Source: Apiospora phragmitis (Eukaryota > Ascomycota > Sordariomycetes > Amphisphaeriales > Apiosporaceae). From it: a stretch of DNA of 64,000 bases. Made by a program: the position numbers and the translations under genes. Every line of letters begins with the position of its first letter. The first letter of the stretch is position 1. Below the pieces are notes generated by a model. That model had not been told where the DNA came from, did no database searches, and saw nothing but the letters and a program-made list of their open reading frames with translations. The DNA lies in contig JAQQWL010000011.1 of assembly GCA_038363925.1 (NCBI GenBank), forward strand, positions 5,952,001 to 6,016,000, in the 5' to 3' direction. Positions 41,390-54,216 of the stretch are shown here, in pieces.

Positions 41390-41944
41390 GCTCGCAACTC
41401 GGCGGTGATTTGAACAAGGACGAAGATGAATGCTGTCGGTGTTGAACCAGCTGCTCAGCCACAAGATGGCCTCAAGGCTTTGCTACGGTGCACTGCTTTA
41501 AGACTACATGAAGAGGCGTTACCATCCCTTCGGTTCAACATTTCTACCAGTACGTGCTATATATAAGAAGAAAGGCCATCGCGGCTAATACATGCTTCTT
41601 TCCAATTAGCATGAGATGGAAGATGCAGGGGCCCAAGATGTTGGTTCGAAGTTTTGATGCTTCGACCAATAGCACACTGTTGGGGGTGAAGGCCAAATGT
41701 TACAAAGACGGGGATTGGTCGTGGTCAATTGATGACAGGGGCTCTACGATGCAGGCGCCCTACCCGAGCACTTGGGACCATGATAAAATAAGCGCTGGTT
41801 CGGGTGCCTGCCATGAAGCAAACCAACTGCTATTTTTTTAATGAAAGTGTACTTAAGGCGCCTTCGACCGACTACTTTCATTCTTGAGTATAGACCCCAG
41901 CGTACCTACTCTGTTGGAAAGGCACATAGCCCGTATTTACATCA
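41390..41944. other. Divergent intergenic region
   Basis: This lies between the surface-protein gene (minus) and the GT69 gene (plus). A plus frame at 41554-41841 has no domain and is not called. Confidence 0.5.
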
Positions 41945-48415: not shown

Positions 48416-50656
48416 GTAAAGTTTCCTTTGGAGCTTTCCGATGCTTTGCTTTGTTCAGGATGTTCCGTTCGTCATCTTCACCTGTTTTCCTCGTTTACAT
48501 TTGACTTTGGCCGTGCTGTTCACAGGAGTGGCAGCCCTTTGCATTGCATGATATAGCGGAATTTGGGGGCTTGAAGGTTGAGGCTTCAGCATATCTGGGG
48601 TAGAGGTGTTATTCGCCCCCCCTTTATTTCCGAAGACGACTCGTACAACTGCTTTATGGCCGGTCTGGTTATGATCCATGGACAGAGGAGTTCGTTAGAT
48701 GCTTGGGGCGTTCTGTTTCCTTCTTGGGGCATTGCGTAGCGACTGGTTTTTTTTTAATTATAATAGCGACTGCATATAGATATGTTGATGCATCATAGAT
48801 TTCAGGTTTCCTCAGCGCCATCAAGTTGCAGTATCATTGGCCTCTTCTTACTCTAACATCCCAACTTTGTACGACGTGGGTGGGCATTGTCATGAATCAC
48901 ATTTTGGATGCGATGACCGTCATCAAGCTCAAGATATCTCTACCTCCCCCTTCATCTTGCCCCTAAACGGCCTTCCCACGTGCAAAATCAAGTTGTCTTC
49001 GCGAACGACTATCTGTCACAGTGCTACTGCGATATCCCAGGCCAAAGTTCTACTTACTCGACATTGCAGTAGGGTCAGCATTGATATCGTCAGAGCTTCA
49101 AACGCTGTCTTCCAGAAATCCAAAAAATCTTCCCATGTCAGGTGTCTGCAGCGACAGCCATGGGAAATCCAGATCACATGCAGGCCTCCAGCTACCGTTA
49201 CTGTCACGGGTTTCACGAGTCACATATACCTTTTTATATTTTACCGTGGTGCACACCTGCTTAAGATTATAAATAACATTGCTTACGTAGACACTGGCCG
49301 TGTGAACGAAAGCTTGTGTCAACCGCCATGATAGGTCGTCCATTCCCTCCACCCCGTCTGTGCCCAGCCAAGGTTGCCTTGGCTTCTCGATCATGCTTAT
49401 TTCCTTACCCATTACGGCTTATGATCCCGAAAGCTTCAATCCAACCTATTATTCTCACTCCAACAGAAGAGGTTCGGGAGCTGAAAGAGGCTTCGAATTT
49501 CCTCCAATTGTGTCACGCTACTCATCTGATCTATCGACGGCCGGCCCAGGCTCCCAGCAGCCGTACCCTTATTCCCACCAGTAACTTGGTATTTCCACAA
49601 TGGAGCTTGATTCCCAACATCTCACTACGAGTACCACCGCCGAATCGGGCGGTTATCCATTCGTCGAAGCGCCTCAGTCCGGCCTACCTCTTGCTCGTCA
49701 AGTGCTATCGGGGGTGCGGCTCGAGATAAAAGGACTTTTCGAGCCCGTACTGGTCTTCCCAAGATTGTTACGCCAAGGGCTAGTCATCTCTAATATCCCG
49801 CGGTCAATGGGACCACTATCGGACGGAGTCTAGAATACGGTAGGACCCAGTTCAAGGGCTCGAAGTTTGCAGTAAGTCATGAACGGAGGCGTTTGAACGT
49901 CATCGATGATAAGCAACTGCGGACCGAGCATCTCGGGATCTCGTTCGGCTTTCGTGAGCATATCATATCATTTACTCATTTGGCGCGCCTGGTCAGGAGA
50001 TTTATGAGTCCAGAACATAGGCGCTCAGACCGATGGCATATTCAACGTCGTTCTTCCGAGCTCAAGATCATTCGTCAGCATCCGCGTCAGAGAGCGGGAG
50101 TTTGGGTTGGAATAGCCTCTGGTTGATGGCGGACCGGCGTCAGACCAAGAGATAGGGCGAGGGCTCTGGGCATCTCATGATGAGACGAACATGCCTGTCT
50201 AGGAGAGGAAAATCGGAGAAGCATAGACTTACTCGCTCGACACCTTAGTTTGCATAGTCGAACTTCCTCTCTTCCATGTAGGTCGGGCTCAGGGTCTCAG
50301 CGCAAAACAAATAGCGTACGATGAACATCGCCAGAAAGGAACAGCGGCTGAAGAATCAATGAACGAGCAAGAATCTGGAAACGAAAGTGTTGGCCTTGTG
50401 GAAGAATAAGTGGTCCTTGCCCACTGTCTGCGAGCATATAAACCCGCCGGTCTCCTGGAGTTTTCCCTCGATTCTCCTGACTTTCCTTCATCAGCAGCAC
50501 ACGATCAGTATCAGTGTACCTTTTTTGCCCATACCTTGTGAACAACTTCCAACTTCATCACCAAATCACCTTTCTCCTCGTAGGGGTTCTATTGGCAATA
50601 CAATTGCACCTCTTGTTACATATCACAAACCTGACCTCCACTCCTGAACCAACAAG
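48416..50656. other. 2.2-kb intergenic region and promoter of the RG-tail precursor
   Basis: Frames at 48837-49331 and 49316-50126 (plus) are Ser/Arg-rich, change frame repeatedly and match nothing I know; they could be gene debris but are not called. A TATAAA at 50437-50442 lies about 215 bases before the ATG at 50657. It is followed by a CT-rich leader with many short pyrimidine tracts, the usual form of strongly expressed fungal promoters. Confidence 0.5.
50437..50442 (+). promoter_or_regulatory. TATA box of the RG-tail secreted precursor
   Basis: TATAAA in GCATATAAACCC, about 215 bases before the ATG at 50657, followed by a pyrimidine-rich leader. This implies a 5' UTR of about 180 bases. 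Confidence 0.45.
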
Positions 50657-51821
50657 ATGCAGAACTTTCTTGCCGTCATCCTGCTCGCCGTTGCCGCCCT
50701 GGAGGGTGTCGTAGCCGCGCCTCTCGCCGATGCCGCTGCGGTTGATGTCCGTACCAATGACAAATTCCCTGATGCCCCTGCCTTCGACGGTGTTGAGAAT
50801 ATCTATGGTGAGTTGTTCGTCTGGTGACCCGCCGCCCACCCCCCCTTCCTAACCATCACCTGCATCGGAGCTCTATTCCCATCTTCACCAAAGATCTGAT
50901 ATTTATCCACTTTCACTGGTGCCCAATTAATGTGCGCACATATCCTGAAATTTGAGTTAACACTAGGTGTTAGGACGGGATCTCGCCGAAGCTGAAGATG
51001 ACGAGAAGCAGAATAGTAGGCTACCAATTCAAGACTCTTTATGACCCCCTCATGCACATTGATACAGTCAGCAGCAGCTAACCTTCTCGTCGATCCAGGT
51101 GCTATCGGCGGCGGTGCCCCAGCCACCGTAGCAGATGCGATCCCCTTGGACTCGGCGCCAGAATTGTCGGAGGAACCAGCCGCTCTGGGGCCAAGGTCCG
51201 CCGACATCGAGGAGAGAGACCTCGACAGTGAGGATGATGGTCAGTTGGAGGCCCGCGATGTCGAAGAGGAGGATAACAGTGGCCTCGAGAAGAGAGTAGG
51301 CTAACCCACTTCCACATTCCTGTGACGACGTTCTCTGACTTGGACTGATATAGCAACGACGTGGTGGCCGCCGCGGAGGTGAGTTTGTGGCCTGAAGAGT
51401 GGTTCGCTCCACAATAGGAGACTACTAACGCTGGGTACTAAAGGACGCGGGGGTGGCCGTCGTGGAGGTGGTAAGTTCACAGTCTCGTTATGATTGGCGG
51501 TACAATAGGAGAATACTAATGCTAAGTGTTGAAAGGACGTCGGGGCGGTGGTCGCCGAGGAGGTACGTCTAAATTCCCAGAAAAGTCTGCTTTACAACAG
51601 GAATACTAACGCCAAATGTCAATAGGTCGAAGGGGAGGAGGTGAGTCCGCAGACACGGCCGGAGTTGCTCCTTAAATGAGTGATACTGACTCTTAGTGTC
51701 ATAGGACGCAGGGGTGGCCGAGGCCGAGGTAAGTAGATCGCCCCCTTGCTCCTTTCATCCCGATACCCTCCCCACGGATATAAACTAACGACAAACATTC
51801 ATAGGTCGCGGAGGATGGTGA
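50657..51821 (+). CDS. Secreted precursor with kexin site and Arg/Gly-rich tail from microexons
   Basis: No known family. Nine exons: 50657-50807, 50974-51015, 51099-51295, 51354-51378, 51444-51470, 51536-51562, 51626-51640, 51705-51728 and 51805-51821. They total 525 nt, or 174 aa in frame. The first ~21 residues are a signal peptide (MQNFLAVILLAVAALEGVVA). The pro-region is acidic (EERDLDSEDDGQLEARD, DVEEEDNSGLEKR). Exon 3 ends exactly after Lys-Arg, a Kex2-type site, and exon 4 starts the tail with QRRGGRRG. The tail is 44 residues: 18 Arg, 24 Gly, one Gln and a final Trp. Exons 5-8 are 27, 27, 15 and 24 nt, all phase 1-1, each adding a GRRGG-like unit. Every junction has GT-AG ends; introns 4-7 are 63-65 nt with matching branch-site sequence. 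If processed, a very cationic peptide would be released outside the cell. The function is unknown; an antimicrobial, wall- or nucleic-acid-binding role is only inference. Confidence 0.75.
51354..51821 (+). repeat. Tandemly duplicated microexon-intron units
   Basis: Exons 4-9 of the RG-tail gene with introns 4-8. Introns 4 and 5 share ACAATAGGAGA followed by ACTACTAAC or ATACTAATG. Intron 6 has AATACTAACGCCAAATGTC, and intron 7 has GATACTGACTCTTAGTGTC. Each unit is about 80-92 nt. The shared sequence inside introns, their near-equal length and the symmetric phase together point to repeated duplication of a unit made of one intron plus one microexon. Confidence 0.7.
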
Positions 51822-52320
51822 TGGTAGCACGAGAAAAGGGGCACCAGTGGTATCGGAAACGGTCGCTGAGAAGGCAACTGACCGAGTACTAAGCGCAGTA
51901 TAACCATTATGGGTTTAGGTAGTTTTGCCATGGGAGGGAAGCCGCTTGTGGACAGAAAAAAGAAAAAGGGGGAAGAAAAAAAGAAGAGAGAGGGGCGGGA
52001 TGTGACTTGAATCTGAGTCTGAGAGTGCAATGGGAGAAATGTTCATGGTTCTCGTCATTCCTTCATGTATGATATTAGGAGAAAGGCATTTTGCCCCTTC
52101 GTTTCCTTCCCTTTTGCCCGAGGGACGATCATTTCAATTTTATTTTTTGCTTTTTTACTTTCCCGATATGAGATATTCCTTGTGCATTGTCCAGCAACTG
52201 GGATGTGCCCATTGGCAGACCAGCATACATGAATCCTCGGCTACCAAGCTACCCATGGCATCAGCCCCTGAATCGTCAAGACTATATGTGCCAACCCCCT
52301 TCCCACGCGCGCGCCCCGCA
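51822..52320. other. Convergent 3' intergenic region
   Basis: This lies between the RG-tail gene (plus) and the MFS gene (minus). A purine-rich A/G tract lies at about 51953-51993. No gene is supported. Confidence 0.5.
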
Positions 52321-54216
52321 CTACATGCTGCCGTCTTTCCCCACTGCCCTCAAGCGCGGGCCCCCGTACCAAAGCACAACGACCGAGGGGAACCCGAGGG
52401 CCACGAAGAGGATCGCCGGCAGGCTGTTGCCCCAGCCGTAGCCCAGCGGCCCGCCGTACAGCTGCGGCGCGAACAGGGGAAGGCGAAGGCGAGCAGATTG
52501 CTCAGCATGCGCACGGCGGCGTTGGCCGAGGCCGCCTCGCCCGCGCCGAACTCGTCGAAGAGGTAGGCGTAGAAGCCCTGGCTCAGCATGAAGGAGGCGC
52601 AGCAGAAGACGCCGACGCCGATGTCGGCTACGGGCCACGACAGGCCCCGCTCCACGGCCCAGCCGTACCACAGCAGGCCGGCGGGCATGATGACGGTGGG
52701 GGCGACTAGGAAGGGAACATGGTATTCGGGTACGGCCGTATCCTCGTCGTCGTTCTCCTCGCTCACTGCTGCTGCTGCTGCTGCTGTTTCTGCTGTTTCT
52801 GCCGCCTTGGGGCTCGAGGGCTGCCCGGCCGAGGTTATTGTCAGCTGCTGCTTGTGCTTGTTCCTTTGGAGCCTCCATAGCCAATCCATTAGGGGCCCCC
52901 CTGTCTGCGTGCCTATGATGGCTCCCGCTGCGATGGCGATGTAGTTGAGAGAACTTTCGGTCGGTGTCTGGCCACGATCAATCCACATCTGCGCAAAAGC
53001 CGAAAGAACAAGGAAGTAGATGCTGAAGTTCAAGGCAATATTCAACGAAAGGAAGATCACGATAGGTCGGTGCCTGAGGAGCTTAAGAGGTCGGAGCAGG
53101 GCGATCTGGATGGGGCGCAGGACGTTTCGAAGATAGACCATTTTAAAAGGCTGTGGCGGAGATGTCGATGACGATGCTGTCCGAGATATGCGTTGAAGGA
53201 GGATTTTGCCATTTGTTTCTCTGAGCAACAAGAAGCCCAAGACGGTGATGACGGCGCTCGCGGCCGACATGATCCAAAAGAGTAGCTGCCATCGAAGATG
53301 CTGAGAGACTAGACCCCCGACTATGGGCCCCAGGGCCGGGCCGAGATATGGGAGCAGAGAGGCAATAGCCAGCGATCTATCGACTCGGGGGCGTTAGTAT
53401 TGCTCTTCCAGCTAAACCAAGCCGCACGTCTCAGGGAGGGGATGTGTTGAAAATAAACCCGCAATGGGCTGCAAATTCAACTCCGAAAGTCGCTTACTTG
53501 CCACGATCGCTTGGGCCATACATATCCGCAAGTATCGGTCCTGTGAGCTTGAGAGGAGTTGGACACCAGTTCACACAAACACACACACAACCATCTGCTA
53601 CCTCGGACACCACACAACGCGGACTCTCTAGTTGGACACATACCGAAATTCCCACAGATGAAGCAGAGCCCGTAAGCAACCGACCAAGTATCATTATGCC
53701 CTTGCTATTTCCGACGGGGCATAGCGAATTCCACAAGACAAACCACATATTGCAGGCAACCCATACAGGCTTCCTGCCAAAAATTTCTGACAGGGGACCG
53801 ATGATGAAGGGGCCGAAGGCCAATCCCAGTGTATACACCGAGAAGGCGATCTGCATAACCGACTCTGACATGCGGAGATCTTTTGCGATGCGCCCCAATG
53901 CAGGTGCTACGATGCTCACAGACATGAGGCCCACCAGGTGCCCCAACGTGATGATCAGAGCGATTGTGAGTTTGCGGGAGGTAGGCCAGTTATAGGGATT
54001 TCTTGGGTCGTCAGGGCCCCAGCATGTTTCGGTGGCCGTCGCGGGCTGTTTGTTGATGACCAACGGTCAGCTCGGTCGGTGGCCTATGTGGAAAGAGGCG
54101 GGGAGAGACTTTACCTGCTGCCTCTCGGGGTCTTCCCCTGCCGTGGCTGGCATGGAGAGTACTTCACCAATCGGCTCGTCTGGCGCATTATGACTCTTTT
54201 GTCCAGGGCCTGACAT
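52321..54216 (-). CDS. MFS transporter, DHA1 (drug/polyamine) type
   Basis: Plasma-membrane proton antiporter by family, with 12 predicted spans. Exons are 54216-54115, 54045-53644, 53547-53498 and 53376-52321. The cytosolic N-terminus leads into WGPDDPRNPYNWPTSRKLTI, the usual DHA1 entry. Span 2 and the signature loop are APALGRIAKDLRMSESVMQI and LGLAFGPFIIGPLSEIFGRK. A 50-nt exon encodes LTGPILADMYGPSDRGK, and the next opens LAIASLLPYLGPALGPIVGG. A central loop follows the sixth span (SSSTSPPQPFKMVYLRNVLR), and a second, low-complexity loop contains poly-Ala and EENDDEDT. Spliced length is 1610 nt (3n+2). One C is probably missing at 52476-52479, where the frame must change between LAFAFP and LFAPQLYGGPLGYGWGN. 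The corrected length is 536 aa. The substrate is unknown. Confidence 0.88.

Follow-up and report, generated by a model that had tools for sequence, protein, structure and literature searches.

The region between positions 50657 and 51821 of the window (the whole 64,000-nucleotide stretch of Apiospora phragmitis DNA analyzed here) raises the question as to whether a fungal gene encodes the Arg/Gly-rich tail of a secreted peptide in a series of microexons, and whether these microexons are copies of each other. The sequence of this region and those of its relatives indicate that it is very probably a real nine-exon gene, located on the plus strand, as are all the parts described below. The nine-exon model gives a coding sequence of 525 nt and a predicted protein of 174 residues without any in-frame stop, while stops occur in all three forward frames if the introns are not removed. 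A candidate TATAAA-like box, picked out by eye, is present at 50437–50442, approximately 215 bases upstream of the start codon. Exon 1 (50657–50807, 151 nt) carries the start codon, a signal-peptide-like stretch and the beginning of the pro-region. Exon 2 (50974–51015, 42 nt, phase 1-1) encodes a further part of the pro-region and matches the deposited protein PG994_011583, the match extending up to the LEKR motif. Exon 3 (51099–51295, 197 nt) encodes the acidic pro-region and ends with LEKR, the presumed Kex2 site. Exons 1 and 3 together hold 348 nt, and exons 4–9 contribute 135 of the 525 coding nucleotides.

The six microexons measure 25, 27, 27, 15, 24, and 17 nt. Intron 3 (51296–51353, 58 nt, donor GTAGGC), which shows no similarity to the introns after it, is followed by exon 4 (51354–51378), which encodes QRRGGRRG and, being entered in phase 0 and left in phase 1, sets the frame of the tail; the LEKR-QRRGG junction is also found in the A. 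arundinis protein P0005. The array then consists of intron 4 (51379–51443, 65 nt), exon 5 (51444–51470), intron 5 (51471–51535, 65 nt), exon 6 (51536–51562), intron 6 (51563–51625, 63 nt), exon 7 (51626–51640), intron 7 (51641–51704, 64 nt), exon 8 (51705–51728), intron 8 (51729–51804, 76 nt), and the coding part of exon 9 (51805–51821), which includes the TGA stop codon and encodes the tail end RGGW. An alternative acceptor for intron 7 may exist at 51711. The donors of introns 4–8 (GTGAGT, GTAAGT, GTACGT, GTGAGT, and GTAAGT) all fit the pattern GTRNGT, and each of these introns contains a branch-like hexamer ending 14–15 nt before the intron end. The exon sizes given in the original prediction, the 44-residue tail with its 18 Arg and 24 Gly residues (the other two being one Gln and one Trp), the phase 1-1 of exons 5–8, the lengths of which are all multiples of three, and the near-equal lengths of introns 4–7 were all obtained again when recomputed.

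The chance occurrence of such an array was assessed in the window and in 20 segments of its contig (10 kb each), making up 264 kb and 42 strands in all, by searching for chains of introns having a good donor, a branch motif and an acceptor, joined by exons of 9–36 nt consisting of Arg and Gly codons only. The present array, with five introns, was the only chain of at least two introns detected. When any stop-free exons of 9–51 nt were accepted, the chain in the array comprised six introns and used the acceptor at 51711 instead of that of the gene model (51704), whereas the longest chains on the other 41 strands comprised at most two introns (one in 34 strands, two in four and none in three). 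The array is not a chance pattern, since no other Arg/Gly-only chain of two introns or more exists on either strand of these 264 kb.

Relatives were compared at the protein level, the microexon array itself being seen in A. phragmitis only. Two profile searches, in which the candidates sharing most words were scored (7,991 and 7,986, so that distant relatives may be missed), and a search with residues 1–131, which retrieved PG994_011583 (P0001) with 99% query coverage and 100% identity, were included in this comparison. Among the 14 database relatives, the genus is given for ten, and all ten are Apiospora; within the range searched, the gene is restricted to this genus, and it most likely encodes a genus-restricted cationic peptide precursor. 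The N terminus encoded by exon 1 is similar in 13 of the 14 relatives, P0013 being without it. The tail is read in frame in P0005 and off frame after LEKR in P0001, P0002, P0003, and P0013; P0006 keeps the presumed intron 3, P0004 stops inside it, and the seven others (P0007–P0012 and P0014) end before the tail. That a single one of the 14 has the Arg/Gly frame as annotated counts against the reading favored below. In the deposited A. phragmitis model (P0001), exon 4 is missing, exons 5–7 are read one base off, and the reading runs into intron 7. P0002, P0003, and P0013 show similar off-frame tails, which suggest from the proteins alone that exon 4 is skipped in their models as well. Gene finders can miss exons as small as 25 nt. 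The case illustrates how genes of this kind can be lost in annotation: because the 25-nt exon is dropped, the character of the tail is no longer visible in the deposited A. phragmitis model.

In the A. arundinis protein PG990_005768 (P0005), LEKR is followed by a 41-residue in-frame tail (QRRGGRGG...RGRN), and P0006 reads the DNA of this tail one base off, the two readings being compatible over 42 codons without conflict (six of them ambiguous). When the A. phragmitis tail is aligned with that of A. arundinis, 34 of 40 residues are identical in the Arg/Gly frame, which is a generous figure because two-letter tails align by composition, and 19 of 40 one base off; this comparison is supportive rather than decisive. 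The second codon position is G in 43 of the 44 tail codons, and the third takes all four bases. The fact that codon position 2 is G, that P0005 is in frame, and that P0006 fits the same DNA makes the Arg/Gly frame look like the conserved one. The five spliced junctions of the array match the A. arundinis coding sequence deduced from these proteins at 17, 18, 18, 15, and 20 of 24 bases, the last value being that of junction 8-9, versus 13, 12, 13, 14, and 14 of 24 in the case of intron read-through. Junction 7-8 is hardly supported (15 versus 14), and the same caution about composition applies. The genome of A. arundinis AAU 773 was annotated using RNA-seq (public reads, BioProject PRJNA891674) and FunGAP, as described in the part of the publication considered (PMC10999098), in the main text of which, to the extent covered, the prefix PG990 does not occur; no paper on the PG984–PG998 gene models was found in the literature. 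Just downstream of the Arg/Gly stop, the off-frame reading remains open across 51822–51903 (to VSETVAEKATDRVLSAV) and is similar to the SETTAEAR end of P0002 and P0003; this similarity may correspond to ordinary 3' UTR similarity or to a second coding frame.

According to the original prediction, every unit composed of an intron plus a microexon looks like a copy of another. The local alignment scores of all 21 pairs of introns 2–8 were compared with those of 276 pairs formed by 24 computed introns of this genome, which are candidates picked for their branch motif and for C or T before AG. The intron finder gave sets of 23, 7, and, depending on the setting, 24, 24, 26, or 16 candidates, and the similarity tests were based on a set of 24; a looser set of 62 candidates was used for acceptor use and length only. 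The score of pair 4-5 was reached by none of the 276 control pairs, with or without masking of the branch hexamer, and by none of 2000 shuffles. That of pair 5-6 was reached by 1/276 control pairs (52/276 after masking) and 1/2000 shuffles, that of pair 4-6 by 2/276 (12/276) and 9/2000, and that of pair 6-7 by 9/276 (206/276) and 5/2000, introns 6 and 7 thus being weakly similar. The scores of pairs 5-7 (57/276, 117/276 after masking, 265/2000 shuffles), 7-8 (83/276, 25/276, 104/2000), and 3-4 (258/276, 199/276, 1735/2000) were reached more often. Pair 2-5, for which no copying had been claimed, was reached by 48/276 control pairs and by 9/276 after masking. Since 21 pairs were compared without correction and this unclaimed pair scored so well when masked, only pair 4-5 is firm. 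It also ranks above all 120 pairs formed by the 16 controls of 55–80 nt, in four settings.

Introns 4 and 5 have a block of 33 bases in common (79%), and both end with AAG, an acceptor used by 4 of the 62 candidate introns in the looser set, the scoring of which disfavored A at this position. The repeats within the array are spaced by 89, 90, 90, 91, 95, 166, 179, and 261 bp. With the branch site masked, the best self-match of the intron bases among lags of 60–129 was found at lag 91, and 12 of 2000 shuffles reached the maximum observed at lags 88–94; with the branch site unmasked, lag 91 ranks fourth. The near-equal intron lengths are weak evidence alone, because they are close to the usual intron size (the median lengths in the candidate sets being 64, 69.5, and 75.5 nt). 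We conclude that the middle of the array has undergone at least one duplication, and probably two, of a unit of approximately 90 bp composed of an intron plus a microexon. Duplication is firm for introns 4 and 5 and suggestive for intron 6, and it is not supported for introns 3, 7, or 8; the claim made about every unit thus holds for part of the array, and among introns 4–7, the alignment of which had been proposed as a check, pair 4-5 exceeds all 276 control pairs and pair 5-7 is reached by 57 of them.

Other accounts of these introns and exons have to be weighed against constitutive splicing of partly duplicated units. The common 33-base block might suggest that the introns are introner-like elements spread across the genome, which we consider extremely improbable: such elements exist as many near-identical genomic copies, and the 21-base pattern shared here occurs without mismatches at only two places, in introns 4 and 5. 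The candidate spread was rejected, as matches with three mismatches were found at four other places, versus three in the case of the reversed control pattern. The symmetry of exons 5–8 and the minor AAG acceptors of introns 4 and 5 would also be compatible with regulated skipping of these exons, by which tails of various lengths would be produced, a mechanism proposed for the micro-exon genes of schistosomes. This is unlikely in view of the nearly identical tail lengths in the two species and of the RNA fold of the region, which is not unusual (z 0.62). The readable tails, of 44 and 41 residues, also give no support to the idea that tail units come and go. A special RNA structure over the array was rejected on the basis of the same z value, and no Rfam match was obtained at positions 50600–52100.

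Exon 4 is a separate case, because its 25 nt are not a multiple of three, so that skipping it would shift the frame of the rest of the tail, a point absent from the original prediction. It might therefore serve as a frame switch, its inclusion giving the positively charged Arg/Gly tail and its skipping an Ala/Val/Glu/Asp-rich end running past the Arg/Gly stop. The length of exon 4, when those of exons 5–8 are multiples of three, fits this idea, as do the off-frame tails following LEKR directly in four deposited Apiospora proteins and the resemblance between the SETTAEAR end of P0002 and P0003 and the A. phragmitis SETVAEK (10 of 24 aligned residues over the whole end). We nevertheless find it very unlikely, as the tails of A. 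phragmitis and A. arundinis agree less well off frame (19 of 40 residues), the off-frame ending in A. arundinis looks unrelated, and the variation would then lie at the second position of the codons. The boldest combination, in which cassette duplication and splicing would let the fungus adjust how long and how charged the peptide is and where Kex2 cuts it, exon 4 would switch it between positive and negative forms, and the gene would be the first fungal micro-exon gene for a secreted peptide, is distinctly unlikely as a whole. Constitutive splicing is the default reading, the symmetric exons allowing in-frame skipping.

The predicted precursor consists of a signal-peptide-like N terminus (recognized by eye), the acidic pro-region, LEKR, and the 44-residue tail encoded by exons 4–9, and in these respects the secreted-type precursor originally proposed is borne out. 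The net charge is +18 for the tail and -23 for the pro-region (109 residues); the corresponding values in A. arundinis P0005 are +17 and -19. No Pfam match was obtained with the predicted protein, nor any match among solved structures with the pro-region, the part compared. With its putative secreted polycation placed behind an acidic pro-region and a LEKR site, the protein has an architecture like that of cationic peptide precursors. It is likely to be secreted and cut after LEKR. The signal peptide would direct the precursor to secretion, the acidic pro-region would offset the charge of the tail, and a Kex2-type protease would cleave after LEKR. The cationic peptide released might bind negatively charged surfaces or nucleic acids and, most simply, might act as an antimicrobial or an antagonist of neighboring microbes; we put forward such a charge-based antimicrobial or surface role only tentatively. 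The tail is encoded by six microexons lying between short, ordinary fungal introns, and the middle units at least arose by tandem duplication of some 90 bp of intron plus microexon. We are inclined to favor this reading, that of a secreted precursor with an acidic pro-region, a cut at LEKR, and a polycationic Arg/Gly peptide encoded by partly duplicated microexons.

The tail also contains seven RR pairs, which are possible Kex2 sites and were not mentioned in the original prediction; because of these pairs, the existence of an intact 44-residue peptide is doubtful if Kex2 cuts efficiently. The product might instead be a Kex2-processed repeat protein cut after each RR into short Gly/Arg peptides, the main one being GGRGRGRGGW. 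In silico cutting at KR and RR gives QRR, GGRR, GGRGGGRR, GGGRR, GGGRR, GGRR, GGGRR, and GGRGRGRGGW in A. phragmitis, and QRR, GGRGGGRGGRR, GGRGGRR, GGRGNRGGRR, and GGRGRGRGRN in A. arundinis, the last pieces being similar, and putative KEPs are reported in nearly all fungi, according to the part of the survey considered (PMC6339444). We regard this reading as rather doubtful, since the GG and GGG cores are very short and, apart from the last one, the pieces differ between the two species. An ustiloxin-type RiPP or other cyclised-peptide cluster at the gene, which was considered as a candidate, is also unlikely, because UstYa (DUF3328) has no match in the ten neighboring frames scanned (37.7–64.0 kb) and the nearest UstYa among the matches found on the contig is approximately 110 kb away. 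At least 31 exon-level matches with UstYa (PF11807) are present in the genome, on several contigs, several of them lying close together, and ustiloxin-type clusters are likely to exist elsewhere in the genome.

The favored precursor can be compared with several known systems. The gene layout resembles that of schistosome micro-exon genes (MEGs), of which the present gene is not one. As in the part of PMC4350168 considered, the product is of the secreted type, the short exons are symmetric, and skipping could occur in frame; the microexons of MEGs measure 6–36 bp, as given in the corresponding part of PMC12998952. The symmetric microexons typical of MEGs are represented by exons 5–8 (phase 1-1, 27, 27, 15, and 24 nt), whereas most of the coding region of a MEG consists of tiny symmetric exons, versus 135 of 525 nt here, in a single gene of a fungus, the comparison being one of layout. 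Aphid bicycle genes, as presented in the portion of PMC9168663 considered, likewise encode putative secreted effectors in many small exons of one phase, but their internal exons, in genes with about 17 exons on average, are almost all in phase 2; the present gene has nine exons, an array entered in phase 1, and an exon 4 starting in phase 0, the comparison again being one of layout. If the splicing is as read here, a fungus has also reached the symmetric-microexon layout that blood flukes and aphids show in their secreted proteins, and it could be tested in a culturable organism whether splicing has been put to use convergently in secreted peptides.

In fungi, this microexon design is unusual. 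A functional microexon has been reported in Xlr2 of Trichoderma virens, none having been described in a filamentous fungus before according to the part of that paper considered (PMC11121469, 2024); Xlr2, a transcription factor, has one microexon, in contrast to the array of the present secreted-type precursor. A signal peptide, dibasic sites, and repeats characterize fungal KEPs (PMC6339444, in the part considered), and the present protein resembles them with its signal-like stretch, RR pairs, and repeats, but the cores of the A. phragmitis pieces mostly consist of two or three glycines. With regard to the definition of Le Marquer (2019), which involves at least four fragments of at least two residues after KR or RR, nine fragments were counted without the signal stretch; as to the at least three similar fragments that should make up at least 15% of the protein, GGRR-like pieces recur and 4 × 6/174 amounts arithmetically to about 14%, slightly under that threshold. 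The definition also involves a signal peptide according to SignalP and no membrane helix according to TMHMM, for which a signal-like stretch is discernible by eye. The words exon and intron have no occurrence in the main texts of two KEP surveys, including PMC6339444, where gene layout is not treated. The SP7-like effectors of Rhizophagus also combine a signal peptide with hydrophilic imperfect repeats, the first of which is preceded by a conserved intron, the comparison resting on their description in the part of PMC11333574 considered, where no microexon array is described; this repeat-bearing secreted family of mycorrhizal fungi can act on host splicing (PMC11333574, same part). In the literature on fungal microexons and on secreted-protein genes with short exons, screened by title or beginning of the abstract, with most subscription papers falling outside the screen, no such array was found; in PMC5094085 and PMC4014442, microexon is only a read-mapper setting.

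The gene is single-copy in the A. phragmitis genome (52.7 Mb), where DNA searches detected the gene itself only and sequence comparisons give no convincing paralogue: a protein search retrieved three exons of the gene and a weak match on C13 (37% over approximately 53 residues, E 0.85). In the window, a frame on the plus strand at 41930–43231 matches Cryptococcal mannosyltransferase 1 (CAP59, E 7.2e-65), and frames matching the major facilitator superfamily (52353–54066, minus strand) adjoin the peptide gene tail to tail.
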